64,000 nucleotides of DNA from NCBI RefSeq assembly GCF_900105785.1, contig NZ_LT629799.1, positions 3,038,001-3,102,000 of the forward strand, in the 5' to 3' direction. The notes beneath the pieces were generated by a model, which saw nothing but the letters and a program-made list of their open reading frames with translations, was not told the DNA's origin and did no database searches. The position numbers and the translations under genes were made by a program. Below are positions 17,713 to 62,352 of the stretch, one piece after another. The stretch comes from Microlunatus sagamiharensis (GTDB lineage Bacteria > Actinomycetota > Actinomycetes > Propionibacteriales > Propionibacteriaceae). Each line of letters opens with the position of its first letter. The stretch's first letter is position 1.

Positions 17713-17823
17713 GTCCTCGCTCCGCTCGAACGCGGACCGCGCTCTCACCCGGTGTCTTCCTCCTCGTTCGCGAACGAGAAGCGTGTTCGCACTCTCGTCG
17801 TCCAGACACCGGCGCGCGGTCCG
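17713..17823 (+). repeat. Nested triple-stem element, copy A
   Basis: Three nested inverted repeats: outer CGGACCGCGC (17733-17742) with GCGCGGTCCG (17814-17823); middle CCGGTGTC (17749-17756) with GACACCGG (17805-17812); inner GCGAAC (17770-17775) with GTTCGC (17785-17790) and loop GAGAAGCGT. Connectors are TCTCAC, TTCCTCC and TCGTCGTCCA. A leader (GTCCTCGCTCCGCTCGAACG) precedes. It lies between the divergent penicillin-acylase and ruc genes. Confidence 0.85.
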
Positions 17824-17915
17824 GTGGTGGTCGACTTGAAGACGTCGAGGTCAGGTCAGAGACGTCGGCGTCGGGCAGGAAGGCGCACGGCTCGTTCCGG
17901 CGTCCCGGGAATGGG

Positions 17916-17942
17916 TTGGCAGTCGATATTCTTGAGTGCTAG
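17916..17942. promoter_or_regulatory. CIRCE element (HrcA operator)
   Basis: TTGGCAGTC, 9 nt, GAGTGCTAG. The consensus is TTAGCACTC-N9-GAGTGCTAA, so 15 of 18 arm bases agree and the spacing is exact. It ends 46 nt before the ATG of the zinc-ribbon gene at 17989. HrcA represses heat-shock genes through this site. No hrcA gene is in the window. Confidence 0.85.
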
Positions 17943-17988
17943 CGAGACACGGTCGGCCCGCGGGGCCGGTCACGACGGAGAGAGCACC

Positions 17989-18360
17989 ATGCCTACCTAC
18001 CAGTACCGCTGCACCGAGTGCGGGCACGACCTCGAGGCCGTGCAGAAGTTCAGCGACGCCGCGCTGACGGAGTGCCCGAACTGCCACGGGCAGCTGCGGA
18101 AGATCTACAACGCGGTGGGCGTGGTGTTCAAGGGCTCGGGCTTCTACCGCACGGACTCGCGGCCCAAGGAGGGTTCGTCGAGCGGTTCCGGCTCGTCGGG
18201 CTCCTCGGGGTCCTCCGGCTCCGACACCAAGAGCAGCGGGTCCGGCTCCTCCGACAAGTCCGGCGACAGCGGCTCGGGCTCGTCGGGCACCAAGACCGAC
18301 ACCGCCAAGCCGGCCAAGGCCGCCGCCTCCTCGTCCACAGGGTCGGGCTCCGCCGGCTGA
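17989..18360 (+). CDS. Zinc-ribbon protein of the FmdB/Ruc type with disordered Ser/Gly tail
   Basis: 123 residues. The N-terminal zinc ribbon has Cys8-x2-Cys11 ('RCTEC') and a second pair in 'ECPNCHG', followed by 'LRKIYNAVGVVFKGSGFYRTDSR'. From about residue 60 the protein is almost only Ser, Gly, Asp, Lys, Thr and Ala and should be disordered. This layout matches mycobacterial Ruc (Rv0991c), a chaperone activated by oxidation of its zinc-binding cysteines and controlled by HrcA. The CIRCE site at 17916-17942 supports that role. The ATG at 17989 follows a GGAGAGAG purine run. Confidence 0.8.
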   Translation: MPTYQYRCTECGHDLEAVQKFSDAALTECPNCHGQLRKIYNAVGVVFKGSGFYRTDSRPKEGSSSGSGSSGSSGSSGSDTKSSGSGSSDKSGDSGSGSSGTKTDTAKPAKAAASSSTGSGSAG

Positions 18361-18409
18361 GGTCTGTGGACGACCGGCACGTCCGGGCCGACGTCATGAG
18401 GGTTGAGGC

Positions 18410-19057
18410 GTGCGCGCCTCGACCAGCCGACCCGGCATCCCCCACCACCGTCACCACCCGCTGCGCCTCCTGGCGCGGGCGGCGTCCTGGCACCGGCGCA
18501 AGCTCGCGGTCGTCGCGGCCGCGGCCGCGGTCCTGACGGGGCTGGCTGCCACCGCGCCACCCGCGCCCGCGACGACGGACGTCGTCCGGGCGCGCAGCGA
18601 CCTGGTCGGCGGTGCCGTCCTCACCGCGGACGACCTCGAGACGGTCGCCCTGCCCAGCGACGGGCTCCCCGACGGGGCGAGCGCCGACCTCGACGCGCTC
18701 GTCGGTCTGCGGCTGGCCGCCCCGGTCCCCCGCCACCAGGTCCTCACCCCCGTCGCGCTCACCGGTCCCGCCGCCGTGGGTCCCGGGCACGTCCTCGCCC
18801 CGGTCCGTCTGGCCGACGCCGACGTCGTCGGGCTCCTCCGCCCCGGCGACCTCGTCGACGTCCTCGGCGTCAGCGCGGAGGGCGGTCGTTCGTCGACCGT
18901 GGCGCGGCGCGTCCGTGTGGTGACGGTGCCCGCTCGGAGCGAGGACGACCAGGCGACCTCCGCCGGCGCGCTCGTCGTGCTCGACGTCCCCGACACCGAC
19001 GTCGGAGCGTTGACCCGGGCAGCGGCGGGTGGCAGCCTGACGATCACCTGGACGTGA
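18410..19057 (+). CDS. SAF-domain protein (CpaB/RcpC-like)
   Basis: 215 residues. A basic N-terminus leads to one transmembrane segment ('KLAVVAAAAAVLTGLAA', about residues 31-47). The SAF domain follows ('VVRARSDLVGGAVLTADDLETVALP', 'LVGLRLAAPVPRHQVLTPVAL') and then a C-terminal beta domain ('LLRPGDLVDVLGV'). CpaB/RcpC proteins belong to Flp pilus assembly, but no pilus genes are nearby, so that role is only possible. The GTG at 18410 has GAGGG 7 nt upstream. Confidence 0.75.
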   Translation: MRASTSRPGIPHHRHHPLRLLARAASWHRRKLAVVAAAAAVLTGLAATAPPAPATTDVVRARSDLVGGAVLTADDLETVALPSDGLPDGASADLDALVGLRLAAPVPRHQVLTPVALTGPAAVGPGHVLAPVRLADADVVGLLRPGDLVDVLGVSAEGGRSSTVARRVRVVTVPARSEDDQATSAGALVVLDVPDTDVGALTRAAAGGSLTITWT

Positions 19058-19117
19058 GTCGCCGACGTGGGCGCACGCGGAAACCAGATCCCGACCACCC
19101 CACGGAGGACACGACCT

Positions 19118-19555
19118 ATGAAGAGCCTGACCGGTTTCCGCGACTTCCTGATGCGCGGAAACCTCGTCGACCTGGCCGTCGCCGTCATCATCGGCACGGC
19201 GTTCGCCGCCGTGGTGAAGGCGTTCACCGGGATGATCATGGACATCATCGGCAAGTTCGGGGGTGTCCCCGACTTCAGCAGCACCTCGATCTACGGCATC
19301 AGCGTCGGCGTCTTCATCACGGCGCTCCTGAGCTTCGTGCTCACGGCCGCCGTCGTGTACTGGCTCGTCGTCATCCCCTTCACCAACATCAGCGCCCGCC
19401 TCAAGAAGCAGGAGGAGCAGGTCGAGGCCGCGCCCGCCGTGACCTCCGAGGACCTCCTCACCGAGATCCGCGACCTCCTGCGCCAGCAGGCCGTCGGTAA
19501 CCCGACGCCCGGCCAGGTCCCCGGCTCCTTCCCTGGCCAGGTCACCGAGCGCTGA
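19118..19555 (+). CDS. mscL: Large-conductance mechanosensitive channel MscL
   Basis: 145 residues. 'FRDFLMRGNLVDLAVAVIIGTAFAAVVKAF' is the N-terminal amphipathic helix plus pore-lining TM1, and 'GVFITALLSFVLTAAVVYWLVVIPFTNI' is TM2. A charged C-terminal bundle follows. The homopentamer opens under membrane tension to release solutes in osmotic downshock. The ATG at 19118 has GGAGGA upstream. It is a likely co-transcript with the SAF-domain gene and is closed by the hairpin at 19590-19632. Confidence 0.95.
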   Translation: MKSLTGFRDFLMRGNLVDLAVAVIIGTAFAAVVKAFTGMIMDIIGKFGGVPDFSSTSIYGISVGVFITALLSFVLTAAVVYWLVVIPFTNISARLKKQEEQVEAAPAVTSEDLLTEIRDLLRQQAVGNPTPGQVPGSFPGQVTER

Positions 19556-19589
19556 GGCCCCACCCGGGTCTTCACACCAGCAGCACGAC

Positions 19590-19632
19590 GAAGCGCCCTC
19601 CACCTCGCTGATCGGCGAGGTGGGGGCGCTTC
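19590..19632. terminator. Hairpin between mscL and the convergent gene
   Basis: GAAGCGCC at 19590-19597 pairs with GGCGCTTC at 19625-19632, and CCACCTCGC pairs with GCGAGGTGG inside. It gives an almost continuous stem of about 17 bp around a TGATCG loop. It lies 35 nt after the mscL stop and 60 nt after the facing gene's stop. Confidence 0.75.
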
Positions 19633-19691
19633 GACATCTGCCGTGACGTCGGCCGAGGGCGTCCCGCATGGAGGTCGTCGCGACGTCGTCC

Positions 19692-20015
19692 TCAGGAGCC
19701 GTGGTGCGGCGGCACGTCCGCGAGCAGCCGACGCTCGTCGGCGTCGGGCGCGCGGTCGACGAGGACCGGGCGCGAGGCTCGGCCGAGCCGGGCGCGCAGC
19801 TCGGTCACCGCCGCGGCCATCTGGGCCGCACCGATCCCCTCGCGGAGGTCGGCGGGCACGACGAACGCGCCCCGCGGACGCCCCTCCAGCGCCTCGACCA
19901 CGGCGTCGAGGTCGGGCGCGACCTGCGCGCCGAGCTCGGGGCGCCGCTCGCCGCAGACCGCGTACGCCAGCGCCTGGTGCCAGGGGCGGAGCGGCAGCCC
20001 GGGAGCCTCGTCCAC
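19692..20015 (-). CDS. Unknown 107-residue protein downstream of UDP-glucose pyrophosphorylase
   Basis: I do not recognise this protein. It begins VDEAPGLPLRPWHQALAYAV, has a mostly helical, Ala/Arg-rich composition and no transmembrane segment, and ends DVPPHHGS. The GTG start at 20015 is 1 nt from the upstream stop, so it is co-translated with the UDP-glucose pyrophosphorylase gene. Longer frames upstream lie in that gene and are not real. Codon third positions are strongly G/C, as in neighbouring genes. Confidence 0.65.
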   Translation of the reverse strand: MDEAPGLPLRPWHQALAYAVCGERRPELGAQVAPDLDAVVEALEGRPRGAFVVPADLREGIGAAQMAAAVTELRARLGRASRPVLVDRAPDADERRLLADVPPHHGS

Positions 20016-20016
20016 C

Positions 20017-21408
20017 TCAGGCCTGGTCCCCGCCCAGCACGGTGCCGCTCGGCACGGTGCTCGGCGAGCCCTCGTCGTCGAGCGTCGCGGCACCGGTGAC
20101 CCGGACGTCGGCCTCGAAGGTCCAGTCGCCGTGCACGGTAAGGCTGCGGGCCTCGCGCAGGGAGGGCACGCCCGCCGGGAAGCGCGCGTCGAACTTCGAG
20201 ATGGTCTTGTAGTGCTTGGGGTCGAGGTCGACCAGCGGCGCCGGGTCGGTGACGCGGTCCAGCCGCCCCTCGGGCGTGACGTCGTAGACGTCGGAGCGCA
20301 GCAGGGCCAGGTCGTTCGTCGTCTTCACGGGCAGGAAGCGCTCGCGCCCGACGCCGATCGCCGTGGCGCCGGGGAAGACCTCGATCGCGGCGCCCATCGC
20401 GCTCTCGACCTGCACGACCTCCGGCGAGGAGGAGTCCGACGGGTCGACGTTCTTCACGTTCTTGATCAGCGGCAGCCCGAGGACGGCGTTGCGCTCCTTG
20501 AGCACCGTCGAGACCGCGGCCAGGTCGAACCACAGGTTGTTGCAGTGGAAGAACGGGTGGCGGTGCTCGTCGGTGAAGAAGTGCATCTCGTCGGGCGCGG
20601 TCTGCGCCGTGTCGCGCAGGATCAGCTGCCCGTCGGACTTCCGGACCGCGAGGTGGCCGCCCTTGCGGTCCGCGGGCGTGCGCCGGCACACCTCGGCCGC
20701 GTACGGCGCGCCGGTCGCGGCGAACCACCCCGCGATGCGGGCGTCGGGCGCGGCGCCGAGGTTGTCGGAGTTCGAGACCGAGGCGTAGCGGTAGCCCTGC
20801 TCGATCAGCCGGTCGAGGACGCCGGAGCCCTCGAGGGTCGTGTAGAGGTCGCCGTGCCCGGGCGGGCACCACTCCAGGGCCGGATCGGCCGGCCACTCCA
20901 CCGGGGTCAGGTCCTCGGTGAGGAGCTTGGGCTCCTGGTTCTGCTGGAAGTCGAGGTCGAGGCCGTCGACCGGGAGGTCGGTGTGGCGCGCCAGCGCGGC
21001 GAGGGTGTCCTCGCGCGTGCGGAAGCTGTCCATGAACAGCAGCGGGAGCCGGGCGCCGTACGTGGCACGCGCCGCCTGCACCTGCTCGACGATGAGGTCG
21101 AGGAACGTCTGGTCCCCGCGCACGGGCAGCAGCGACTTGGCCTTCTCCATGCCCATCGACGTGCCGAGACCGCCGTTGAGCTTGATGATCGCGGTCCGCC
21201 CGAGCGCCTCGGCGGCCTGCTCGTCGCTGACCTCGACGTCGACCAGCATCGGCGGGTCGGTCAGCGGCTCGATGCTGTCCTCGGCGATGAGGCCGGTGAC
21301 GCCCTCCTCCAGCTGGTGGTAGTAGTGCGCGAAGACCTCGATCGCCTGGGGCTGCACCCCCGCGTCGGCCATCTTCGTGCGGGCGGCTTCCAGACCTGCT
21401 GCGCTCAT
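20017..21408 (-). CDS. UTP-glucose-1-phosphate uridylyltransferase, eukaryote-type UGP family
   Basis: 463 residues. 'IIKLNGGLGTSMGMEKAKSLL' is the nucleotide-binding signature of the UDPGP family found in eukaryotes and some actinobacteria; bacterial GalU is shorter and has a different loop. 'EWCPPGHGDLY' and 'SVSNSDNLGA' form the sugar and metal site, and 'FHCNNLWFDL' follows. The C-terminal stretch carries a short beta-helix-like segment. It makes UDP-glucose from UTP and glucose-1-phosphate for polysaccharides, trehalose and glycogen. The ATG at 21408 follows a clear gap from the next gene. Confidence 0.92.
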   Translation of the reverse strand: MSAAGLEAARTKMADAGVQPQAIEVFAHYYHQLEEGVTGLIAEDSIEPLTDPPMLVDVEVSDEQAAEALGRTAIIKLNGGLGTSMGMEKAKSLLPVRGDQTFLDLIVEQVQAARATYGARLPLLFMDSFRTREDTLAALARHTDLPVDGLDLDFQQNQEPKLLTEDLTPVEWPADPALEWCPPGHGDLYTTLEGSGVLDRLIEQGYRYASVSNSDNLGAAPDARIAGWFAATGAPYAAEVCRRTPADRKGGHLAVRKSDGQLILRDTAQTAPDEMHFFTDEHRHPFFHCNNLWFDLAAVSTVLKERNAVLGLPLIKNVKNVDPSDSSSPEVVQVESAMGAAIEVFPGATAIGVGRERFLPVKTTNDLALLRSDVYDVTPEGRLDRVTDPAPLVDLDPKHYKTISKFDARFPAGVPSLREARSLTVHGDWTFEADVRVTGAATLDDEGSPSTVPSGTVLGGDQA

Positions 21409-21448
21409 GGGTCGATCGTAGGGACGATCCGCCCCGCCCGCGGAACCG

Positions 21449-22486
21449 CTACTTGGCCTCGGGCGTGATCGCGACCAGCAGGGCGACCGCCGCGGCGGCC
21501 ACCTGCTCCTGGACCGCGCCGAGGTCGGCGGTCGCCGTGCCGTCGTGGGGCTGGAGGCCGTAGTCGGCGAAGCTCGCGTGCGCGGCGCCGGAGATCACGA
21601 CGTAGGTGGTCTCGGCCGGCAGGTTCGCCTTGGAGCGCTCGATGTCGGCGGGCGTGGCGAGCCCGTCCTGGCCACCGGAGACCGACGTGACGCGCAGGTC
21701 GGTGCGCTCGAGCCGGCTCGCGGGGTAGGAGGCGAGCAGGAGCAGCCCCTGCACGCGCTGGTCGTCCTCGGCGAAGGACGCGGCGACGGTCCCGCCGAGC
21801 GAGTGCCCGCCGACAGCCCAGTGGGTGATCTCCGGGTGGTTGGCCAGGATGGTCCCTGCGTGGCCGCCGTCGAAGATCGAGAAGCCGAAGGGCTCCTTGA
21901 GCACCACGACGAGGTAGCCGGCCTCGGCCACCCGGCGCAGCTCCGGGGCGTACGAGCGCGGGTCGACCCGGGCGCCGGGCAGGAAGACCAGGCCGGTCGT
22001 GGGCCGCACCGTGGCGCCCTTGGCGTCCTCCATGCTCGGCACGAGCTCGTACCAGGTCACCCGGTCGACGACGCGGACGCCGTTCTCGCTGCGCATCGCG
22101 GCGAGCGCCGACGGCTGGGCGGCGAAGGGCCTCGAGTAGCCGAGGAGCACGACCGACAGCACGGCGAGCACGAGCAGCGGCACGGCCAGCAGGACCCGCA
22201 CCTTGGCACGGCGCTCGAGCTGCGCCGGAGTGCGGCGCACGGGGTGCTCGTCGTCGCCCTCGCGGTCCTGCCGGTCGCCCATCACGAGCGTGGCCACCGC
22301 CCAGGCCATCGCGACGAAGCCCAGCAGCCCGGTGGCCAGCCCGAGGACGACGGCGGCCGGGTGACCGTTCAGGAGCACGCCGCCGCGCGTCCAGCCGATC
22401 CACGCGGTCACGACGACCATCGCGGCGCCGACCACGAGCCAGATCAGGGCCAGCACGGTGCGGCTGAGAGCACCGGGTTGCCGCAT
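21449..22486 (-). CDS. Membrane-anchored alpha/beta hydrolase
   Basis: 345 residues. Three hydrophobic helices lie in the first 125 residues (about 10-30, 40-65 and 98-115). A dienelactone-hydrolase-like alpha/beta hydrolase domain follows: nucleophile Ser in 'GGHSLGGTVAASFA', acid Asp in 'GGQDGLATP', and His in 'SGAAHASFADYG'. The catalytic triad is complete and should face the outside or the membrane surface. The substrate is unknown. The ATG at 22486 fits the start of the first helix. Confidence 0.8.
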   Translation of the reverse strand: MRQPGALSRTVLALIWLVVGAAMVVVTAWIGWTRGGVLLNGHPAAVVLGLATGLLGFVAMAWAVATLVMGDRQDREGDDEHPVRRTPAQLERRAKVRVLLAVPLLVLAVLSVVLLGYSRPFAAQPSALAAMRSENGVRVVDRVTWYELVPSMEDAKGATVRPTTGLVFLPGARVDPRSYAPELRRVAEAGYLVVVLKEPFGFSIFDGGHAGTILANHPEITHWAVGGHSLGGTVAASFAEDDQRVQGLLLLASYPASRLERTDLRVTSVSGGQDGLATPADIERSKANLPAETTYVVISGAAHASFADYGLQPHDGTATADLGAVQEQVAAAAVALLVAITPEAK

Positions 22487-22587
22487 GGCGACGAGGGTAC
22501 GGCGCGACCCCGATGAGTGTTCCGCGACGCGCGGGTCAGGATGGTCGTGCCGAGCGCCCGGCCGGCCGCGAGCAGAGGAGCACCGCC

Positions 22588-22998
22588 ATGCCTTCCCGTC
22601 TCAACCCCTACCTGAACTTCCGCGGCCAGGCCCGCGAGGCCCTGGACTTCTACCGGTCGGTCTTCGGAGGCGAGTACACCGTCACGACGTTCGGCGAGTT
22701 CGGCGAGACCCCGCCCGGCGTCGAGGGCGACCAGGTCATGCACGGCCAGCTCGAGACGTCGATGGGGTTCACGCTGATGATCTCCGACGTGCCGTCCTCG
22801 ATGGACCTCACCCCCGGCGACAACATCACGGTGAGCCTCAGCGGCGACGACGTCGACGCGCTGCGCGGCTACTGGGAGCGGCTCTCCGAGGGCGGAACGG
22901 TGACCTTCCCCCTCGAGAAGCAGATGTGGGGCGACGAGTACGGGCAGTGCCAGGACCGGTTCGGCATCCCCTGGATGGTCAACATCGCCGGCAGCTGA
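22588..22998 (+). CDS. VOC-superfamily protein (PhnB/glyoxalase-like)
   Basis: 136 residues. 'LNPYLNFRGQAREALDFYRSVFGGEY' is the opening of the PhnB-like VOC family, and 'WGDEYGQCQDRFGIPWMVNI' the closing motif. The fold is the paired beta-alpha-beta-beta-beta module, often metal-dependent. No substrate can be assigned. The ATG at 22588 has AGGAG 7 nt upstream. It is followed at 25 nt by an ATPase gene in the same direction. Confidence 0.85.
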   Translation: MPSRLNPYLNFRGQAREALDFYRSVFGGEYTVTTFGEFGETPPGVEGDQVMHGQLETSMGFTLMISDVPSSMDLTPGDNITVSLSGDDVDALRGYWERLSEGGTVTFPLEKQMWGDEYGQCQDRFGIPWMVNIAGS

Positions 22999-23023
22999 CC
23001 CGCCACGTCCCACGGCGTCCAGG

Positions 23024-23740
23024 ATGCGGTTCGACGACCGCCCCGTCCGCCGGGTCGAGGCCCGGGAGCCGGTGCCCGACGACGAGTGGCCGGCCACCGT
23101 CCCCGCCGTCGCCCAGGTGCTGCGCGACGGCCTCGACCTGCCGGCCGGGGTGACCTTCCTGGTCGGGGAGAACGGCGCGGGCAAGTCCACGCTCGTGGAG
23201 GGCCTGGCCGGTGCGTTCGGCCTGGGCGTCGAGGGTGGCGAGCGCGGCTCGCTGCACGCGACGTACGCCTCCGAGTCGGGACTGGCCGACACGCTGCGCC
23301 TCGTGCGCGGCGGCGGTGCCCAGCGCAACGGGTTCTTCCTGCGCGCCGAGACGATGCACGGCTTCTTCACCTACCTGGCCACCGAGGCCGCGGTCGGTCG
23401 CTACCACGAGATGAGCCACGGGGAGTCGTTCCTGTCGGCGGTCGAGTGGTACCTCCGCAGGCCCGGCTTCTACTGCCTCGACGAGCCGGAGGCGGCCCTG
23501 TCCTTCTCCTCGACGCTCGTGCTGCTCGGCCGCCTGCACGAGCTGGCGCGGACGCCTGGCGCGCAGGTCGTGTGCGCGACCCACTCCCCCGTGCTCGCGG
23601 CGCTGCCCGGCGCGACCATCCTCGAGCTGGGCGAGTGGGGCGTGCGCGAGACGACGTGGGACGACCTCGTCCTCGTCGCGAACTGGCGCTCCTACCTGAC
23701 CGACCCGCGGCACTACCTGCGCCACGTCCTCGACGACTGA
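23024..23740 (+). CDS. AAA/ABC-type ATPase (SMC-like, stand-alone)
   Basis: 238 residues with a full ABC-ATPase set: Walker A 'GENGAGKST', signature 'MSHGESF', Walker B 'YCLDEPEAAL' and switch 'CATHSPV'. No transmembrane segment is present, and it lacks the coiled coil of SMC and RecF proteins. This compact form is typical of the AAA_21-type predicted ATPases that often work with an unknown partner. The upstream VOC gene is 25 nt away and could share its transcript. No nuclease partner is adjacent, so a defence role is not supported. Confidence 0.8.
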   Translation: MRFDDRPVRRVEAREPVPDDEWPATVPAVAQVLRDGLDLPAGVTFLVGENGAGKSTLVEGLAGAFGLGVEGGERGSLHATYASESGLADTLRLVRGGGAQRNGFFLRAETMHGFFTYLATEAAVGRYHEMSHGESFLSAVEWYLRRPGFYCLDEPEAALSFSSTLVLLGRLHELARTPGAQVVCATHSPVLAALPGATILELGEWGVRETTWDDLVLVANWRSYLTDPRHYLRHVLDD

Positions 23741-23786
23741 CGCGCCGAACCGATCTCCTCGACCGGCGCCGGCGTCGTCGGACGAC

Positions 23787-24206
23787 TCAGAGGTGCGTGA
23801 GCACCACCGCGAGCACCGCGGCGACGGCCACGAGCGCGAACGCCAGCAGGACGACGTTGATGCGGGCCGCCTGGTCGAACAGCGCGTCCACGGCGGCGCT
23901 CTCCTCCGCGGTCGGGGCGCCGGTCGGCTGCGCGAGCGCGAAGGGCGCGGCGACGGCCGGGACGACGGACGCGGCGGCCTCCGGCTCGACGGTCGGGGTG
24001 AGCTTGATCGTCCCGCTCAGGGCCTCGGCCTGGCGCTGCTGCGCCGCGGCGTGGTGGCCGGGGGTCCAGCCCGGCGCGCCGACGGTCAGCGCCGCGTCAC
24101 GGACGAGCGGCGACGCGTCGCCGGCGAGGGCGGACTGCCGGGTCAGGACCTGTGCACCGTCGAGCGCGGAGGGGGTGGGGACGAGGCCTGCACTACGGGG
24201 GGACAT
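23787..24206 (-). CDS. Unknown small protein with C-terminal membrane anchor
   Basis: 139 residues. The first 110 are rich in Ala, Pro, Thr and Val with no recognised domain. One strong transmembrane helix ('INVVLLAFALVAVAAVLAVVLTHL') ends at the last residue, giving a tail-anchored layout. The ATG at 24206 is the first of the frame. It is convergent with the ATPase gene, 46 nt apart. Function unknown. Confidence 0.65.
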   Translation of the reverse strand: MSPRSAGLVPTPSALDGAQVLTRQSALAGDASPLVRDAALTVGAPGWTPGHHAAAQQRQAEALSGTIKLTPTVEPEAAASVVPAVAAPFALAQPTGAPTAEESAAVDALFDQAARINVVLLAFALVAVAAVLAVVLTHL

Positions 24207-24324
24207 GCGACTCCCTGGTTCACGGGCTGCGGACAGCCGTTGCGATCAAGCTCTTTCCCCGAGTGCTTCACGCAGGGCACAAGCGTCGGTCCGGCCGCAC
24301 CCCGGCGGGGGCGATTTCGCACTG

Positions 24325-24345
24325 TTCCCAGGAAATTCTTGGGAA
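24325..24345. other. 21-bp near-perfect palindrome next to a TTGACA
   Basis: TTCCCAGGAA, A, TTCTTGGGAA: ten base pairs with one G/T mismatch around a central A, followed 4 nt later by TTGACA at 24350-24355. No good -10 hexamer appears at 16-18 nt. The spacer 24207-24460 otherwise shows no gene. It could be an operator or a short hairpin. Confidence 0.4.
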
Positions 24346-24460
24346 GGGGTTGACAATCGCTCGATCGTTGTGCTTTCCGCCTCGGAAGTGGTCCTGGGAG
24401 GCGATAACACGCCGAGGCGGGACACCGCCCGGAGCAGCGGGAGCCGCGAGGGCGACGGGG

Positions 24461-24533
24461 CGCCCCCAGCAGGATTCGAACCTGCGACACGAGGTTTAGG
24501 AAACCTCTGCTCTATCCCCTGAGCTATGGGGGC
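24461..24533 (-). tRNA. tRNA-Arg, anticodon CCT
   Basis: A 73-nt cloverleaf on the minus strand. The acceptor stem GCCCCCA pairs with TGGGGGC and the discriminator is G. The anticodon stem GAGGT/ACCTC encloses the loop TTCCTAA, giving CCT, which reads AGG. The T-arm has GGTTCGAATCC. CCA is not encoded. It stands alone between two protein genes. Confidence 0.95.
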
Positions 24534-24632
24534 CGGCGACCCAGGCTAGTGGCAAGCGGCGTGCCGCGCCTCCGGGTCCGCCCCTCCGGGCCGCGCGCTC
24601 CGGCGGCGCCCGCCGCTGCGAGCATGAGGCCC

Positions 24633-25589: not shown

Positions 25590-25620
25590 CCGCTCACCGC
25601 GCGACGGCGGCAGGACGCAC

Positions 25621-25657
25621 GAGGACCCGCGCCGGGATGATTCCCGGGCGGGTCCTC
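25621..25657. terminator. Hairpin between nucleoside hydrolase and thioredoxin genes
   Basis: A 10-bp perfect stem, GAGGACCCGC (25621-25630) with GCGGGTCCTC (25648-25657), and a possible inner CCGGG/CCCGG pairing. It lies between convergent stops and probably serves both genes. Confidence 0.8.
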
Positions 25658-29490: not shown

Positions 29491-29607
29491 AGGCCGGCTA
29501 ATCCACAGCCAACACCCGAACCCGCGAGTGCCGGACCGTCCATCCGGCCGACCGCACAGCTCCACCGGAGCCCGGTTGACAAGCTCGCGGGTTTGTCCAT
29601 GTTTGAT

Positions 29608-29751
29608 GTCCTTCGCTTCGCTCCGGACGCGGATCGGGCTCCAACCCGGTGCCTTCCTCCCTTCGTCGGAAGCCCGCGGGCAACGCCTCCGGTCATGACC
29701 GCGCCGCGGAGGCTTCCTCCTCCGGTCGTCCAGGCACCGGCGCCCGATCCG
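29608..29751 (+). repeat. Nested triple-stem element, copy B (variant centre)
   Basis: Outer CGGATCGGGC (29630-29639) with GCCCGATCCG (29742-29751); middle CCGGTGCC (29646-29653) with GGCACCGG (29733-29740); connectors TCCAAC, TTCCTCC and CCGGTCGTCCA. The usual inner stem and AAGCGT loop are replaced by a longer piece with GGAAGCC/GGCTTCC arms and an inner GCCTCCGG hairpin. It lies between the mini-ORF and the ligase gene end. Confidence 0.75.
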
Positions 29752-29795
29752 GCGCATCCCGGGCTTCAGGCGCTCCTGCCGCAGCGCGTCCTCGT

Positions 29796-49188: not shown

Positions 49189-49297
49189 GCGCCGGCGCCT
49201 GGACGACCGAGCGGGCAGGACACGCTTTTCGTCCTGCCCGAGAGGGAGGAAGGCGCCGGACCAGAGCACCGGCCGCGTCCGAGCGGAGCGAGGACAG
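49189..49297 (-). repeat. Nested triple-stem element, copy C2 (tandem with C1)
   Basis: Nearly identical to C1, 118 nt away; I see two base differences across the shared part. Middle and inner stems and loop GAAAAGCGT are intact. The outer 3' arm keeps only its first four bases before the junction with C1, so the outer stem is lost. This looks like a tandem duplication. Confidence 0.88.
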
Positions 49298-49302
49298 GAT
49301 GC

Positions 49303-49350
49303 GCGAGGCGCACCCTCCCCCACCCCGCGCACCCTGCGGGGTGCGCCTCG
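49303..49350 (-). terminator. Hairpin after the beta-propeller gene
   Basis: CGAGGCGCACCC near 49304 pairs with GGGTGCGCCTCG at 49339-49350. A second GGGTGCGCCTCG lies at 49358-49369, giving an alternative partner. It follows the leftward gene that ends at 49386. Across 48924-49385 I otherwise see only the two repeats and the secY leader. Confidence 0.6.
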
Positions 49351-54807: not shown

Positions 54808-54898
54808 CTGATGTCTCCTGGTTGTCTCACCGGTTCCCTCACGGGCCTGGTGGAACTGACGTTCCCTGAGCCCGTGGGGCTCCGGGTCTTGCTGAGCC

Positions 54899-54919
54899 GC
54901 CCCGCGACGAGCGCGGGGC
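54899..54919 (-). terminator. Hairpin at the S10/spc boundary
   Basis: GCCCCGCG, loop ACGA(G), CGCGGGGC: 8 base pairs, 15 nt after the rpsQ stop. It probably ends or attenuates the S10 transcript before rplN. Confidence 0.6.
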
Positions 54920-54933
54920 AGGCGGGCGTGGTG

Positions 54934-55227
54934 CTACTTGGCCTTCTCGAGGATCTCCACGACGCGCCAGCGCTTGGTCGCGCTCAGCGGCCGGGTCTCC
55001 ATGATCCGGACCCGGTCGCCGACACCGGCGGCGTTCTCCTCGTCGTGGGCCTTGAGCCGCGTGCTCTGGCGCAGCACCTTGCCGTACAGGCGGTGCTTGA
55101 CGCGGTCCTCGACGCTGACCACGACGGTCTTGTCCATCTTGTCGCTGACCACGTAGCCCTCGCGGACCTTGCGCGCGGTGCGCTCGGTCGCGGAGGCCTC
55201 GACGGTCTCGTTGGTCGTCTCGCTCAT
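54934..55227 (-). CDS. rpsQ: 30S ribosomal protein S17
   Basis: 97 residues. '[49 protein letters not shown]' and '[25 protein letters not shown]' form the OB fold of S17. A 15-residue Thr/Glu-rich leader precedes it. It overlaps the rpmC stop by 4 nt and is the last gene of the S10 group. Confidence 0.98.
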
Positions 55228-55463
55228 GCGTTCACTTCCTCGGCGTCAGGATCGGTCGTGATCCCGAGCTCGCGCTCGGTCAGCACGGTGTAGATCCGGG
55301 CGATGTCCTTGCGCACGGCGCGCAGCCGGCCGTGGCTCTCCAGCTGCCCGGTGGCGTTGGAGAAGCGGAGCCCGAAGAGCTCCTCCTTCAGCTCGCCGAC
55401 CTTGCGGTCCAGCTCGCTGCGCGACAGGCCGCGCAGCTCAGCGGCGGTCAGTCCCTTGGCCAT
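55224..55463 (-). CDS. rpmC: 50S ribosomal protein L29
   Basis: 79 residues. '[61 protein letters not shown]' is the two-helix L29 pattern at the exit of the peptide tunnel. The start overlaps the rplP stop by one base and the end overlaps the rpsQ start by 4 nt. Confidence 0.97.
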
Positions 55464-55882
55464 CAGATGTCACCTGCTTCGCGCTTGATGAAGCGCGCCT
55501 TCATGGGCAGCTTGTGGATCGCCAGGCGCATCGCCTCACGAGCCACCTCTTCGTCGACACCGGCGAGCTCGAAGAGCACCCGGCCCGGCTTGATGTTCGC
55601 GATCCACCACTCCGGGGAGCCCTTGCCCGAACCCATGCGGGTCTCGGCGGGCTTCTTGGTCAGCGGGCGGTCGGGGTAGACGTTGATCCACACCTTCCCA
55701 CCGCGCTTGATGTGGCGGGTCATGGCGATACGGGCGGACTCGATCTGACGGTTGGTCAGGTACGAGGCCTCCACGGCCTGGATGCCGAAGTCGCCGAAGG
55801 CGAGCGACGTGCCGCCCTTGGCCGCACCGGTCCGCTTGGGGTGGTGCTGCTTGCGGAACTTGACCTTGCGAGGGATCAGCAT
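55463..55882 (-). CDS. rplP: 50S ribosomal protein L16
   Basis: 139 residues. '[88 protein letters not shown]' covers the A-site-facing core of L16. It lies 2 nt from the rpsC stop, in the normal order rpsC-rplP-rpmC-rpsQ. Confidence 0.98.
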
Positions 55883-55884
55883 GC

Positions 55885-56733
55885 TCAGGCCTCCTGCGTG
55901 CTCGGAGCGGTCTCGGTCGCCGCACCGGCGCCGGCCGTGACGGCCTCGGCCGGGGCGTCCTCGCGACGACGGGCGCCGCCGCGCTCGGGACGGTCGCCGC
56001 GGGCCGGACGGTCACCACGGGCCGGACGGTCACCACGGCCACCCGGACGGCTGCGACCGCCGGCGGCGTTGCGGGCCGCCTTCTGGGCCGCGCGCTCGGT
56101 GCGGGTGCCCGAGACGTCGCCCTTGTAGATCCAGACCTTCACGCCGATGCGGCCGAAGGTCGTCTTGGCCTCGAAGAAGCCGTAGTCGATATCGGCGCGC
56201 AGCGTGTGCAGCGGGACCCGACCCTCGCGGTAGAACTCCGAGCGGCTCATCTCGGCGCCACCCAGACGGCCCGAGCACTGGATCCGGATGCCCTTGGCGG
56301 CACCGGAGCGCATGGCCGACTGCTGCGCCTTGCGCATTGCGCGACGGAACTGCACGCGCGAGGCGAGCTGCTCGGCCACGCCCTGCGCCACGAGCTGGGC
56401 GTCGGTCTCGGGGTTCTTGACCTCGAGGATGTTCAGCTGGACCTGCTTGCCGGTGAGCTTCTCGAGCTCGCCGCGCACGCGCTCGGCCTCGGCGCCGTTG
56501 CGGCCGATGACGATGCCCGGACGCGCGGTGTAGATGTCGACGCGGACCCGGTCACGGGTGCGCTCGATCTCCACCGAGGAGATGCCGGCGCGCTCGAGGG
56601 TCTTGGTGAGCATCGCGCGGACCTTGATGTCCTCGCCGATGTACTCCTTGTACGCCTTGTCGGTGTACCAGCGGCTCTTGTGGTCGGTGCTGATGCCCAG
56701 ACGGAAGCCGTACGGCTGGATCTTCTGGCCCAT
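55885..56733 (-). CDS. rpsC: 30S ribosomal protein S3 with repetitive tail
   Basis: 282 residues; E. coli S3 has 233. '[14 protein letters not shown]' opens the family, '[39 protein letters not shown]' is the KH domain, and '[25 protein letters not shown]' ends the core. The last 60 residues carry three RPARGD-type repeats and an acidic end, probably disordered and RNA-facing. It helps form the mRNA entry channel. Confidence 0.98.
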
Positions 56734-56735
56734 GC

Positions 56736-57146
56736 TCAGGCCCCCTTCTCGGACGTGCTCTTGGGCTCGACGACGACGGTGATGTGGCTGCTCCGCTTGA
56801 GGATGCGGCTCGCGCTCCCCTTGGCCCGCGGGCGGATGCGGCGCATCGTCACGCCCTCGTCCACGAACGCGGCCGAGATGAACAGGTCGTCGCGGCGCAG
56901 GTTGTGCGTCTGCTCCGCGTTGGCCGCCGCGCTGGCGACGACCTTGTAGACCGGCTCGCTCGCGGCCTGCGGCGCGAACTTGAGGGTGTCCAGGGCCGCG
57001 TTGACGTCCATGCCGCGCACCAGGTCGACGACCCGGCGGCTCTTGGTCGCCGAGATGCGGACCTGCTTCGCGATCGCGAACGACCCGGGACGGTCGCCGA
57101 GCAGCGACTTGCGCCGGCTCGGGCGGGAGTCCTTGTCCTTGCTCAT
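56736..57146 (-). CDS. rplV: 50S ribosomal protein L22
   Basis: 136 residues. '[60 protein letters not shown]' and '[21 protein letters not shown]' include the hairpin that lines the peptide exit tunnel. A charged 20-residue leader precedes. It lies 2 nt from the rpsC start. Confidence 0.98.
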
Positions 57147-57177
57147 GACTTCTCTTCTCCTCTACGCACCACCGCGG

Positions 57178-57459
57178 TCAGCGGCGGCGCGCCTTCCGGT
57201 CGTCCTTGACGTGGCCGCGGAAGGTCCGGGTGGGGGCGAACTCGCCCAGCTTGTGACCGACCATCGACTCGGTGACGAACACCGGGACGTGCTTGCGACC
57301 GTCGTGCACCGCGATCGTGTGACCGAGCATGTCCGGCACGATCATCGAGCGACGCGACCACGTGCGGATGACGTTCTTCGTCCCGCGCGTGTTCTGCACC
57401 TCGACCTTCTTGGCCAGGTGGTCGTCGACGAACGGGCCCTTCTTCAGGCTGCGTGGCAT
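57178..57459 (-). CDS. rpsS: 30S ribosomal protein S19
   Basis: 93 residues: '[93 protein letters not shown]' is the complete S19 pattern, by segment. It sits at the 30S head near S13. It lies in rplB-rpsS-rplV order. Confidence 0.98.
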
Positions 57460-57476
57460 CTTCTACTCGCTCCTGC

Positions 57477-58313
57477 TCAGCGCTTCTTGCCGGACTTGCG
57501 GCGGCGGACGATCTGGCGGTTGCTCGCCTTGTTGGGGTTGCGGGTGCGGCCCTCGGGCTTGCCCCACGGGGTGACCGGGTGGCGACCACCGGAGGTCTTG
57601 CCCTCACCACCACCGTGCGGGTGGTCGATCGGGTTCATCGCGACACCGCGGACGGTCGGGCGCTTGCCCTTCCAGCGGTTGCGACCCGCCTTGCCCCAGT
57701 TGATGTTCGACTGCTCGGCGTTGCCGACGGCGCCAACCGTGGCGCGGCACCGCACGTCGACCATCCGCATCTCGCCCGACGGCATGCGCAGCGTGGCGTT
57801 CTTGCCCTCGCGGGCGACCAGCTGGATGCTCGCACCGGCCGAGCGGCCGAGCTTGGCCCCACCGCCGGGACGCAGCTCGACGGCGTGGATCGTGGTGCCG
57901 ACCGGGATGCGCGACAGCGGCAGGTTGTTGCCCGCCTTGATGTCGGCGGCCTCGCCGGCCTCGACCTCGGCGCCCTGGTTCAGCCCGTTCGGCGCGATGA
58001 TGTAGCGCTTCTCGCCGTCCGCGAAGTGCAGCAGCGCGATGCGCGCCGTGCGGTTCGGGTCGTACTCGATGTGCGCGACCTTGGCCGGCACGCCGTCCTT
58101 GTCGTAGCGCTTGAAGTCCACGAGGCGGTAGGCCTGCTTGTGACCGCCACCGATGTGCCGGGTGGTGATCCGGCCGGTGTTGTTGCGGCCACCGGTCTTG
58201 GGGCTCGGGACGAGGAGCGACTTCTCCGGCGTCGACCGGGTCAGCTCGACGAAGTCGGCCACGGACGAGCCACGACGGCCCGGGGTGGTCGGCTTGTACT
58301 TACGGATACCCAT
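57477..58313 (-). CDS. rplB: 50S ribosomal protein L2
   Basis: 278 residues. '[30 protein letters not shown]' is the N-terminal signature and '[36 protein letters not shown]' the conserved loop near the peptidyl-transferase centre, with the essential histidine. It ends in a basic tail. It is one of the most conserved proteins in the window. Confidence 0.98.
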
Positions 58314-58330
58314 TCGAATCAGTCCTTCGC

Positions 58331-58639
58331 TCAGCTCGCCGGAGCCGAGAAGATGTCGATGCGCTGGCCGTCGGCCACCGAGACGATGGCGCGCTTGGTG
58401 TCGGCGCGCTTGCCCGTGCCCGAGCGGGTGCGCCGCTTCTTGCCGGTGCGGTTCAGCGTGTTGACGCCGGTCACCTTGACGTCGAACACCGACTCGACCG
58501 CGATCTTGATCTCGGTCTTGTTGGCGTCCGGCGCGACGAGGAACGTGTACTTGTTCTCGTCCAGCAACGCGTACGACTTCTCGCTCACGACCGGCGCGAG
58601 CAGGATGTCGCGGTGGTTCCGGATCTTGATGGTGCTCAC
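58331..58639 (-). CDS. rplW: 50S ribosomal protein L23
   Basis: 102 residues. '[61 protein letters not shown]' is the L23 fold. It forms the docking site for trigger factor and SRP at the tunnel exit. The start overlaps the rplD stop by 4 nt. Confidence 0.97.
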
Positions 58640-59427
58640 TTGGCGTCCTCCTCGGTGACGTCGGTGCTCGGCTCGAGGACCTCGGCGACGCTGGCGGCGG
58701 AGGCCGCGAGCTCGGCGTCGGTCGGCTCGGCCGAACCCTCGACCGAGGCGGCGTCCAGCTCGGCCTCGCTGACGCGGGCCGTGGCCTTGGCCGAGCGGCC
58801 CGAGACCGGGCCGGCGACGAAGGTGTCGAGCGCGGCGGAGGTGAAGACCACCTCGTCGCAGACGAGCACGTCGTAGGCGTTGAGCTGGTCGACCGTGATC
58901 ACGTGGACCGTCGGGACGTTGCGCAGGCTGACCCAGGCGAGGTCGTCGTCGCGGTGCAGGACGACGAGCACCTTGTCGGTGGTCGCGACCCGGTCGAGCG
59001 AGACGAGCGCGGCCTTGGTCGACGGCACCTCGCCGGCGACGAGGTCGCTGACGACGTGGACGCGGCCGTCGCGGGCCCGGTCGGAGAGCGCACCGCGCAG
59101 GGCGGCGGCGATCATCTTCTTGGGCGTGCGCTGCGCGTAGCCGTGCGGGACGGGCCCGTGGGCCACGCCACCGCCGGCGAACTGCGGCGAGCGGGTCGAG
59201 CCCTGGCGGGCGCGGCCGGTGCCCTTTTGGCGGTACGGCTTCTTGCCACCGCCGCGGACGTCGCCGCGGGTCTTGGTGGCGTGGGTGCCCTGACGGGCCG
59301 CGGCCAGCTGGGCCACCACGACCTGGTGGATCAGCGGGACGTTCGCGGTCACGTCGAAGAGCTCCGCGGGGAGCTCGGCGGTGCCGGCGGTGCTGCCGTC
59401 GGCGGCGAGGACGTCAACGGTGCTCAC
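58636..59427 (-). CDS. rplD: 50S ribosomal protein L4 with acidic tail
   Basis: 263 residues, compared with 201 in E. coli. The tunnel-lining loop is '[40 protein letters not shown]'. The last 50 residues are Ala-, Glu- and Ser-rich and not part of the usual fold. In enterobacteria L4 regulates the S10 operon; whether this holds here is unknown. The GTG at 59427 overlaps the rplC stop (GTGA). The much longer upstream frame is shadow within rplC. Confidence 0.98.
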
Positions 59428-60101
59428 TTGGCGTCTCCCTTCTTGCTCGCGCTGCGCAGGACGACGAGGCCGCCCTTGTTGCCGGGGATGGCGCCCTTGA
59501 TCAGGACGAGGCCGCGCTCGGCGTCGATCGCGTGCACCTGCAGGTTCTGCACGGTGACGCGCTCGACACCCATGCGGCCGGCCATCTTGAGGCCCTTGAA
59601 GACGCGACCGGGGGTCGCGCAGCCGCCGATGGAGCCGGGCGAACGGTGCTTGCGGTGCACACCGTGGCTGGCGCGCAGACCGTGGAACCCGTGGCGCTTC
59701 ATGACGCCCGCGGTGCCCTTGCCCTTGCTGACGCCGGTCACGTCGATGACCTCGTCGGCGGCGAAGAGCTCGGCCGTGACCTCCTGGCCGAGCGTGTACT
59801 CGCTGGCGTCGGCGGTGCGGATCTCGACGAGGTGCTTGCGCGGGGTGACCCCGGCGCGCTCGAAGTGCCCGGCGTCGGGCTTGGTGACCTGCTTGGCCTT
59901 CACGGCGCCGTAGCCCAGCTGGACGGCGGAGTAGCCGTCGGAGGCGGGCGTGCGGACCTGGGTCACGACGCAGGGGCCGGCCTGGACGACCGTCACCGGG
60001 ACGACGCGGTTGTTGGCGTCCCACAGCTGGGTCATGCCGAGCTTCTTGCCCAGCAGGCCCTTGACGGTGCGGCCGCTCGTGGATGTGGCAGTGGTGCTCA
60101 T
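59424..60101 (-). CDS. rplC: 50S ribosomal protein L3
   Basis: 225 residues. '[39 protein letters not shown]' and '[50 protein letters not shown]' form the two parts of L3, the second reaching the peptidyl-transferase centre. The ATG at 60101 gives a ten-residue Ser/Thr leader. It lies 14 nt from the rpsJ stop. Confidence 0.98.
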
Positions 60102-60115
60102 GCTGTTCGCGGTCC

Positions 60116-60424
60116 TCAGAGCTTGATCTCGATGTCGACCCCGGCCGGCAGGTCGAGGCGCATCAGAGAGTCGACGGTCTTCGGGGTCGGGTCGATGATG
60201 TCGATGAGGCGCTTGTGCGTGCGCATCTCGAACTGCTCCCGGCTGTCCTTGTACTTGTGCGGGGAGCGGATGACGACGTAGACGTTCTTCTCCGTCGGCA
60301 GCGGCACCGGACCGGCGACGCGGGCACCCGTGCGGGTCACCGTGTCGACGATCTTGCGCGCCGAGGAGTCGATGACCTCGTGGTCGTAGGCCTTGAGCCT
60401 GATGCGGATCTTCTGTCCCGCCAC
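60116..60424 (-). CDS. rpsJ: 30S ribosomal protein S10
   Basis: 102 residues, the usual length: '[29 protein letters not shown]' to '[15 protein letters not shown]'. S10 also acts as NusE in antitermination. The GTG at 60424 is the family start; the frame continues upstream through spacer. It leads the S10 group. No tuf or fusA lies upstream here, as the next gene is divergent. Confidence 0.98.
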
Positions 60425-60851
60425 CGTGTCCTCTTCTCGCTTCACTCGTGCTGTCTGTGTGCGGCGTGGTGCTCGTGCCGCAGTCCTGCTCTCGGTCCTT
60501 CTTCTCCGACCCCCGCGGTCGGGCGTGTCGCCCGTCCTCCGGCAAACCACGACTGCTTCTTGCCCTGCCGTGGGATGTGGCCCGGCTGCCCGGACGAGGT
60601 CCAGGTGGCCGAGCGAGCGGGATCTCCTGGTGCGGCGGCACCGCTCGGGCCCACGGAAGGACCCCTGAACAGCGCACACCCCGGCGACCTCGTCGGAGCA
60701 ACCGGACAATCTTGTCAGAAGGGCCCAGACGGATCAAATCCGGCCGCACATCCTTGGACGCGGCTCAGGGTCCGGCGCGGCGATCCGCGGCGGGGCGGGG
60801 CCCCTAGGCTGGGTCGGTGCGTCAGCAAACCGCCGCCCAGCGGCTCCGTCG
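60425..60851. promoter_or_regulatory. 427-nt divergent spacer: S10-operon leader and gamma-glutamyltransferase upstream region
   Basis: No coding sequence that I trust. GACAATCTTGTC at 60706-60717 is a perfect 12-bp dyad. The S10 transcript must begin in this region if the operon has its own promoter, but I could not find a convincing -10/-35 pair. The leader next to rpsJ is purine-rich on the minus strand. Confidence 0.4.
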
Positions 60852-62297
60852 GTGAGCGTACCCGTCGGGGTCGCCGCCGGGCACGAGGCGACCGTGGAGG
60901 CCGGGCGCGTCGTCCTCGAGGGCGGCGGCGGGGCCGTCGACGCGGGCGTGGCCATGATGCTCGTGAGCTGCGCGGCCGAGACGATCTTCACCGGCCTGGC
61001 CGGGGGCGGCTTCGCCACGGTCTACGAGGCGGCGACCCGCACGGTGACCTGCGTCGACTTCTTCGTCGCCGTCCCCGGTCTGGGCGAGCGGCGGGCCGGG
61101 CCGGGCACGGCCATCGAGATCACCTTCGTCGGCCAGCGCGTCCCCTACGAGATCGGGCCCGCGACGGTGGCCGTCCCCGGCGTCCCGGCCGGCGCGCGGC
61201 ACCTGTGGTCGCGCTGGGGCCGGCTGCCCTGGGCCGACGTCGTCGCGCCCGGGCTCGCCGCCTCGTACGGCACCCCGTTCCCCCGCACCCACGCCGAGCT
61301 GCTCCCCCGCGTCGCGCCGGCGATGTGCGTGGGCGAGGGCGACCTCGTCTACCGCCACGGTGACGGTTCGCTGCTGGAGGCGGGCGACCCGCTGCGCCAC
61401 CCCGACCACCACCGCGCGTACGAGCTGCTCGCCCGCGACCCCGACGCCTTCTACTCCGGCGAGTTCGCCGACGCCCTCCTCGAGGCCCTGGCCGACGGCT
61501 CCGCGCTGTCGCAGGCCGACCTCGACGCGTACGCGGTCGTCGAGAGCCGACCCTCCGTGGCCCGCTTCGACGACCTGACCGTGCACGCGCGCGGTGACGA
61601 CCTCGACGACGTCCTCGGCACGCTGCAGGCGGCGGGCCTGGCCGTGCCCGGCGACCCCCACCACGACGTCGCCTCGACGCTGGGGCTCGTCGCCGCGCTC
61701 CGGGCGCCCGACCGCCGCGCCGAGACGACCAACCTCGTCGCGGTCGACGAGCGCGGCGACGCCTGCGTGATCACGACCAGCCTCGGCCTCGGCTCGGGGG
61801 TGTGGGTGCCCGGCTTCGGCGTGCACCTCAACTCCATGCTCGGCGAGGGCGAGCTGATCCGCGCCGAGCTCGACCCCGGCGTGCGGATGGGCTCGATGAT
61901 GTCGCCGCTCGTGGCGCTGGACGCCGACGGCGCCCTCGTCGCGGCCGCCGGTGCCGCGGGCGGCAGCCGCATCCGGCCCGCGCTCGTGCAGACCCTGCTG
62001 CGGGTCCTGCGCGGCACCCCGCCGCAGCAGGCGATCGACGCCCCGCGGCTCAACGCGCTGCCCGACCTCGTCCGCCTCGAGCCGGGCTTCGACGCCGCCG
62101 TCCTCGAGGGACTCGCGCTCGCCGGCGTCCCCACCGCGGTCGCCGACGGCCTCGACCCGTACTTCGGCGGGGTGTCCGCGATCAGCACCGGCGGTGCGGG
62201 GTCGGACCCGCGGCGGAGCGGCCACGCGTGGCTTCTGCCTCCGCTCCGCTCCGGCGCGGCCGACGCTCTGACCCTCCGCCTTCCTCCCTCCCGCTGA
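60852..62297 (+). CDS. Gamma-glutamyltransferase family protein
   Basis: 481 residues. The N-terminal half has 'VAAGHEATVEAGRVVLEGGGGAVDAGVAMML' and 'GLAGGGFATVYEA'. Self-cleavage is expected before the first Thr of 'ETTNLVAVDERGDACVITTS'; most GGTs have TTHxS, so the histidine is Asn here. 'HLNSMLGEGEL' and 'SMMSPLVALDADGALVAAAGAAGGSRI' follow. No signal peptide is seen. The last 20 or so residues are encoded inside repeat copy D, which also supplies the stop. Substrate and cellular place are uncertain. The GTG start at 60852 is provisional. Confidence 0.82.
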   Translation: MSVPVGVAAGHEATVEAGRVVLEGGGGAVDAGVAMMLVSCAAETIFTGLAGGGFATVYEAATRTVTCVDFFVAVPGLGERRAGPGTAIEITFVGQRVPYEIGPATVAVPGVPAGARHLWSRWGRLPWADVVAPGLAASYGTPFPRTHAELLPRVAPAMCVGEGDLVYRHGDGSLLEAGDPLRHPDHHRAYELLARDPDAFYSGEFADALLEALADGSALSQADLDAYAVVESRPSVARFDDLTVHARGDDLDDVLGTLQAAGLAVPGDPHHDVASTLGLVAALRAPDRRAETTNLVAVDERGDACVITTSLGLGSGVWVPGFGVHLNSMLGEGELIRAELDPGVRMGSMMSPLVALDADGALVAAAGAAGGSRIRPALVQTLLRVLRGTPPQQAIDAPRLNALPDLVRLEPGFDAAVLEGLALAGVPTAVADGLDPYFGGVSAISTGGAGSDPRRSGHAWLLPPLRSGAADALTLRLPPSR

Positions 62298-62352
62298 CGA
62301 CGGAGAAGCGTGTCGTCAGCGTCCGGTCGTCCAGGCGGAGGCGCGTCGGCCG
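62237..62352 (+). repeat. Nested triple-stem element, copy D
   Basis: Outer CGGCCGACGC (62257-62266) with GCGTCGGCCG (62343-62352); middle CCTCCGCC (62273-62280) with GGCGGAGG (62334-62341); inner CGCTGACGAC (62292-62301) with GTCGTCAGCG (62312-62321), loop GGAGAAGCGT. Connectors are TCTGAC, TTCCTCC and CCGGTCGTCCA. All three stems are perfect. The TGA of the gamma-glutamyltransferase gene lies in the inner stem. Confidence 0.9.

Follow-up and report, generated by a model that had tools for sequence, protein, structure and literature searches.

A 64,000-nt stretch of the Microlunatus sagamiharensis chromosome (contig NZ_LT629799.1, positions 3,038,001 to 3,102,000; hereafter the window) carries five copies of a palindromic repeat, A, B, C1, C2 and D, whose arms differ widely while remaining paired. 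This raises the question of what keeps such arms matched, and whether a folded RNA, a folded DNA or a mutational process lies behind it. All five copies lie where the initial annotation had placed them, with arms, connectors and loops as it described. Our favoured interpretation, in which we place about even confidence, is that they are small, non-autonomous mobile elements of ∼110–165 bp, resembling repetitive extragenic palindromic (REP) sequences or miniature inverted-repeat transposable elements (MITEs) and restricted to this genus of soil bacteria. The complement of the strand on which they were annotated would be selected to fold, most likely as single-stranded DNA (ssDNA).

The pairing itself was assessed at three levels. 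In an alignment of 23 copies from this genome, RNAalifold predicted three stems and a leader hairpin, comprising 30 pairs of which 17 showed changes on both sides. A pair counter scored 95.0% of the cells of this structure as paired, compared to 78.3% in shuffles (0 of 500 reached the observed value), and the covariation score was 0.416 versus 0.131 for the control. When the structure was slid by 1–3 columns only 34–46% of the cells were paired, a comparison in which the unshifted structure has the advantage of having been predicted from that same alignment. The number of further pair types was not above that of the shuffles (114 of 500 reached it). In an alignment of 43 diverse copies from 12 genomes of the genus, which was fitted to the model, 93.9% of the cells were paired, 28 of 30 pairs showed both-sided changes and the covariation score was 0.565 (control, 0.131). 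Finally, pair types were counted in 165 copies from six genomes. There, 4201 of 4512 cells were Watson-Crick, with 34 G-T, 85 A-C and 192 other combinations on the annotated strand, so that copies keeping the arms while losing the pairing were not what we found. The arms are nevertheless free to vary: the 5′ arm takes 74 different sequences in the outer stem and 53 in the middle stem. These data agree with the single shared architecture that had been proposed, and support the view that the structure of the element is under selection, with compensation in every stem.

Orthologous sites allowed these changes to be followed in place. Between genomes, 35 pairs of copies had both flanks matching, and 27 of them were scored from hand-typed comparisons with rounded flank identities, several pairs sharing a copy. 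We counted 97 both-sided Watson-Crick changes (58 of the transversion type), 40 one-sided changes (7 of them G-T) and 21 both-sided changes that left a mismatch. These counts indicate that the stems change in place, mainly on both sides and seldom via wobble. The orthologous copies, with their graded divergence, amount to a natural experiment in which a folded nucleic acid holds its shape while its letters change.

The family extends well beyond the window. BLAST searches of the same 4.405-Mb chromosome (G000) gave 20 matches for copy A and 39 for copy D, and a first covariance model, R1, gave 44 matches, one an assembly duplicate and the four weakest at 36–55 bits. Across 57 genomes, R1 matched 13 of the 20 genomes of the genus and none of the 37 outside it, with 63 matches in G017, 44 in G018, 35 in G019, 27 in G010 and 18 in G014; the six species with long contigs have about 20–60 matches per genome. 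A broader model, R2, built on the 43 diverse copies, was applied to 147 genomes of the family, with 22 candidates scored per genome, and matched 10 of them, all of the same genus (1 of 29 genera). The matched stretch was 120–139 nt long in 115 of the 165 copies. In a pattern scan, 18 of 19 matching stretches were from Microlunatus flavus; the nineteenth exact match, in a Blastococcus / IMG/VR contig, scored 12.6 bits with the model and was attributed to chance. No match was obtained with a second viral pattern, and copy D had none among phages and plasmids. We found no earlier account of these repeats in a literature search that subscription papers mostly lay beyond.

Mismatches in the stems bear on the strand that folds. 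A-C combinations outnumber G-T on the annotated strand, and this held when they were collapsed to distinct combinations of genome, position and mismatch (46 versus 17 without the leader, p=0.0003; 51 versus 26 with it, p=0.006); in G010 and G019 taken singly the two were about equal (9:10 and 8:7). An A-C combination corresponds to G-T on the opposite strand, so the wobble-tolerant strand is the complementary one. The annotation had expected a structured RNA or a protein-bound hairpin; selection on the structure stood up, but the strand that folds is, to judge from these mismatches, probably the complement of the one that had been read. The wobble rate was 0.75% on the annotated and 1.9% on the complementary strand, compared to 36 of 700 pairs (5.1%) in the stems of 33 distinct tRNAs identified by ARAGORN, a control that is fair for the wobble rate alone, as ARAGORN draws allowed pairs only and no A-C. 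For 139 of 165 copies the complementary strand had the lower folding energy, a preference to which we gave little weight as strand evidence since shuffles of this G-rich strand also fold better.

On the complementary strand, the internal segments TTCCTCC / GTCGTCCA read as GGAGGAA / TGGACGAC and can be aligned as U-A, G-A, (G), A-G, C-G, G-A, A-G, C-G. A subfamily in G010 and G018 has the two segments exchanged (GTCGTCG / CTCCTCC), giving C-G, GA/GA, C-G, GA/GA, C-G. In the 161 of 165 copies that could be counted, four being too short, tandem GA/GA (TC/TC on the annotated strand) amounted to 441 units in 158 copies; of the eleven other self-tandem mismatches, CC reached 150, CT 32 and the rest 5 or fewer. 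True partner segments scored 8.70, compared to 6.11 for swapped ones (the highest of 200 being 6.41). We infer that tandem G-A pairs form on the complementary strand, and it is on this strand only that the tandem G-A and GNA motifs exist. The segments had been described as conserved single-stranded parts. Their motifs are indeed conserved in additional copies and other species, and a loose pattern recovers the short apical motif in 132 of 165 copies, but on the opposite strand the internal segments would be joined by tandem G-A pairs and would not simply be unpaired.

Similarly, the leader, annotated as a plain part of the architecture, is present and turned out to be a covarying hairpin in its own right, the fourth of the element, with GA/GA pairs and a triloop of the GNA type. 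On the complementary strand it reads NNNN-GA-GC-GNA-GC-GA-NNNN or NNN-GGA-GC-GNA-GC-GGA-NNN. A pattern requiring the GNA loop and flanking GA/GA, and therefore blind to other loops, was found in 116 of 165 copies, 103 of which have fully paired arms (GTCC/GGAC, GACC/GGTC, GCCC/GGGC, GAGC/GCTC and more). Among these 116, the free base gave GGA in 98, GAA in 14 and GCA in 4; the 49 copies outside the pattern are core-only, divergent or from G019. The alignment of 23 copies provided an independent check, as its leader loop is invariant, reading TNC on the annotated strand and GNA on the complementary one. Lone leader hairpins in the window were no more frequent than by chance. In addition, the decamer that precedes the leader is conserved, as tabulated for 115 copies with a recognisable leader, at about CGTGTCTTCT or ..TTGATT. 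This also holds away from stop codons, so that part of the decamer belongs to the element or to its target. We also observed that the CGTGTC of the decamer CGTGTCTTCT (e.g. window 17703-17712) recurs in the apical loop; the decamer could possibly be an element end, a target or a contact between loop and tail.

The position of the elements relative to genes proved to be far from random. Flanking genes were called with our own simple GC3 script and not taken from annotation. Placement was scored for 134 of the 165 copies; the excluded copies were every one from G019, four from the inside of one array, and those, D included, that lacked two clear neighbours or overlapped a called gene. A co-oriented gene was present on the leader side of 98 of the 134 copies, and in 71 of these 98 the leader started within 15 nt of the stop of that gene, compared to 21.1 expected for random placement in the same gaps. 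The tail, conversely, was within 15 nt of a stop in 3 of 81 cases, with 15.8 expected. Distances from stop to leader peaked at 2, 3–5 and 7 nt. Convergent genes flanked 60 of the 134 copies, while 38 were in +E+ arrangements, where the complementary strand runs antisense to the gene on either side. For several copies (among them G000 L094, G018 L042, G018 L154 and G017 L204), element-free orthologous gene ends of other genomes have the native stop at the junction; in other cases the gene ends differ.

Copies come and go between species. At the site of copy A, read by eye and with an R2 scan, seven of eight relatives have no copy (G017, G018, G010, G002, G019, G016 and G009), and the eighth, G014, has one in the opposite orientation. 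The left flank of copy D matches in seven relatives, one of which, G017, has a copy, preceded by a 14.6-bit fragment; the spacer alone is found in G018, G010 and G016, and in G002, G019 and G009 the flank is not followed by a copy. Behind the Ms1 RNA gene, which precedes copy B, an R2 scan of 20 genomes detected the element in three: G000 and G014 have copies, and G017 has a remnant scoring 26.7 bits. The R2 scans agreed with the sites read by eye. This remnant (G017 L268, downstream of Ms1) is a truncated form of copy B that retains the leader, the outer 5′ arm and the connector, and it shows the decay of a copy.

Two of the rival explanations invoke mutation or duplex DNA. Template switching during replication could keep quasi-palindromes matched with little selection on structure, a process described in PMC8794818. 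The preponderance of both-sided over one-sided changes at orthologous sites, in pairs that are not all independent, is what such a process would give. Moreover, two copies provide clear loop-to-stem conversions: in G018 L164 (G018:C1:981360-981493) the internal G-A segments were turned into a perfect Watson-Crick stem relative to the orthologues by mirror-image changes, and the same change from internal loop to perfect stem occurred in G017 L203 (G017:C15:225027-225163). The initial annotation had allowed for this cause, and for these two copies it fits. Template switching should, however, perfect the interior mismatches as well, and alone it does not explain the GA/GA units retained in all but three of the countable copies or the conserved apical loop; it also leaves the placement and the presence or absence of whole copies unexplained. 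We thus consider it improbable as the main cause, while it probably contributes to the evolution of the arms. Likewise, a protein-binding site in duplex DNA, or a cruciform serving chromosome organisation, could have spread as an ordinary repeat that is dispersed, mostly intergenic and strongly palindromic, and the near absence of wobble would suit DNA. Yet the arms vary freely and the mismatch asymmetry points to one strand, and this explanation appears to us the most remote.

A structured RNA that is transcribed as part of 3′ untranslated regions or antisense to these, and that ends, stabilises or regulates transcripts, is a more serious competitor, though still an unlikely one. Under this explanation the G-A segments would be protein-bound three-dimensional motifs of RNA, and tandem G-A pairs are common in structured RNAs too. 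The close spacing behind co-oriented stops, the convergent neighbourhoods, the position of copy B behind an RNA gene and the excess of wobble over A-C mismatches on the complementary strand all agree with it. Against it, the sense strand of the upstream gene has fewer G-T than A-C combinations, and the loop motifs there are T-C mismatches; the +E+ copies have the complementary strand antisense to the genes on both sides, and the wobble rate of this strand stays below that of tRNA. Furthermore, a scan of the window with Rfam 15 at gathering score returned two tRNAs and Ms_IGR-5 only, with no match to the element, and orthologous sites are often without it. Because wobble is scarce on both strands, the GNA loops are of 3 nt and some gene arrangements put the folded strand antisense to the genes on either side, we favour DNA over RNA as the more likely folded molecule. 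With this family one could test directly whether selection acts on DNA or on RNA, and could set template-switch mutation against ordinary compensation.

In the ssDNA mobile-element model, the folded strand would comprise, from 5′ to 3′, a tail, the outer 10-bp stem, an asymmetric bulge (1 versus 6 nt), a middle stem of 8–9 bp, two or three tandem G-A units with single covarying Watson-Crick pairs between them, an inner stem of variable length, and an apical loop that is either conserved and rich in pyrimidines or long and variable, the leader forming a separate hairpin. An enzyme would recognise the folded ssDNA by its shape and put copies directly 3′ of stop codons, and the arms would diverge fast under selection for pairing, at times helped by templated (quasi-palindrome) mutation. 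Several observations weigh against this model. No mobilising enzyme was identified, the Y1 class being absent and other enzyme classes not having been searched for, and target-site duplication was not established. Placement behind genes suits an RNA element at 3′ ends equally well, the folding-energy preference is partly one of composition, and the z-scores of the five window copies were no better on the complementary strand. The 35 orthologous pairs indicate that movement is not rampant, and presence or absence alone cannot separate gain from loss, the inverted copy at the A site in G014 excepted. If the folded strand is DNA, this would imply a machinery that reads its shape and locates stop codons.

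REPs are thought to be moved by Y1 enzymes, and a RAYT partner had been suggested for the present elements. This candidate was not supported, as the Y1 (RAYT-type) transposase domain PF01797 was found in 0 of 20 genomes of the genus, with the control positive in 5 of 14. Five genes beside repeated copies (L183, L214, L218 and L220) belong to ordinary families and include no transposase. GTAG occurs anywhere on either strand in 16 of 165 copies only, which does not fit a REP/REPIN of 20–40 nt with a GTAG foot. MITEs or PATEs derived from IS200/IS605 come with a related Y1 transposase and insert 3′ of a fixed short target that is not duplicated; no Y1 was found in the genus, and the conserved flank that precedes the leader may be either a target or an element end. 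An integron attC site was rejected as well, RYYYAAC and GTTRRRY occurring together in 0 of 165 copies. ERIC, NEMIS, YPAL and other MITE-like repeats are intergenic imperfect palindromes of 100–170 bp that are free of transposase, as is the Microlunatus element; they keep their sequence, whereas its arms diverge with compensation and its placement behind stop codons is more exact. The double-hairpin elements of mitochondria are also small mobile hairpins, but organellar and smaller.

Closer parallels come from the REP superfamilies. According to PMC3733652, REP, BIME and REPIN sequences of the GTAG and CGTC superfamilies are dispersed palindromes that lie mainly behind genes and between neighbours that converge or run in the same direction, and they form sub-families with alternative complementary stem residues, as does the present family. 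The same paper describes CGTC-type REPs with an 8–9-bp stem, a terminal unpaired CGTC and a CCA tail, likewise without a known transposase; in the Microlunatus element CGTC sits within the internal segment GTCGTCCA and not at a free end. A REP is a single hairpin of 20–40 bp, whereas this element has four helices in ∼110–165 nt; unlike GTAG REPs it has tandem G-A units but no GTAG tag, no Y1 was found in the genus, and the G-T pairing often seen in GTAG REPs (PMC3733652) is nearly absent. Placement and dispersal being alike, and size, architecture, scarcity of wobble and absence of Y1 differing, we regard the element as REP-like but distinct. A likeness in shape is offered by the 3′ overhang of Streptomyces telomeres, where sheared G-A pairs close the 3-nt loops (GCA or GGA) of ssDNA hairpins (PMC4513846 and PMC7205883). 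Judging by its form, the leader may adopt the same GNA triloop and sheared G-A pairs; telomeres are ends of linear replicons bound by Tap/Tpg, unlike these elements, which are dispersed along chromosomes. A new class of ssDNA mobile element, with a GNA-capped, G-A-stacked hairpin put behind stop codons by a non-Y1 enzyme, its arms turning over while its shape is selected, would be a bolder claim, which we consider doubtful.

Within the window, copy A (17703..17837) was annotated on the plus strand, so that the putative folded strand is minus. It consists of the 5′ flanking decamer (17703-17712), the leader hairpin (17713-17732), outer arms (17733-17742 / 17814-17823), middle arms (17749-17756 / 17805-17812), tandem-GA segments (17757-17763 / 17797-17804), the inner stem with apical loop (17764-17796) and the tail (17824-17837). 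Copy B (29601..29765), in the same orientation and with a putative minus folded strand, has a long apical loop. Its leader begins 8 nt past the end of the Ms1-type small RNA gene (Rfam RF02471; 29389..29600, plus strand), a neighbour that lies directly before it and outside the element. The long apical region, 20–40 nt more and variable, replaces the short GARRRRCGT loop in one sub-type, which includes copy B (29665-29720) together with further copies of G000 and G017 whose matches span 150–165 nt.

Copies C2 (49189..49297) and C1 (49049..49184) are the first and second of a tandem pair annotated on the minus strand, and their folded strand would be plus. C1 has one mismatch in the outer stem, and C2 loses its 3′ outer arm after ∼4 nt, at the junction with C1; at the orthologous site in G017 a single copy is listed by R1. 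Here (49189-49310) and in L172 of G018, the upstream copy of a tandem pair lacks the tail or 3′ arm where the next copy starts, and this loss may be a clue to how new copies join. Elsewhere, tandem arrays of 3–5 copies with a spacing of roughly 110–175 bp were found in G010 and G019 (L183 1571-2241; L217, L218 and L220), the array in G010 comprising five copies at ∼135-bp spacing between the genes for trigger factor and Clp protease.

Copy D (62230..62366), annotated on the plus strand with a putative minus folded strand, is entered by the upstream open reading frame (60852-62297) of the gamma-glutamyltranspeptidase family. This frame crosses the leader, the outer arm, the connector and the middle arm of D before it reaches its stop codon (TGA 62295-62297) in the inner stem, within the 5′ arm. 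The orthologue in G018 stops after ..RRSGSVALL; ∼21 new C-terminal residues and the stop of the upstream frame come from copy D (62237-62297). The eight genes beside the window copies are of ordinary families.

Along the chromosome of M. sagamiharensis, nearly 1 Mb (G000:C1, about 1.63–2.60 Mb) is without an R1 match, while the matches in G018 are spread throughout. The duplicate R1 match mentioned above, at 204-338, lies in a stretch of at least 1.8 kb at the contig start that is repeated near the other end with 98% identity and many indels (G000:C1:1-1800 and about 4390166-4391987; L011 and L010), which looks like an untrimmed overlap of a circular assembly.

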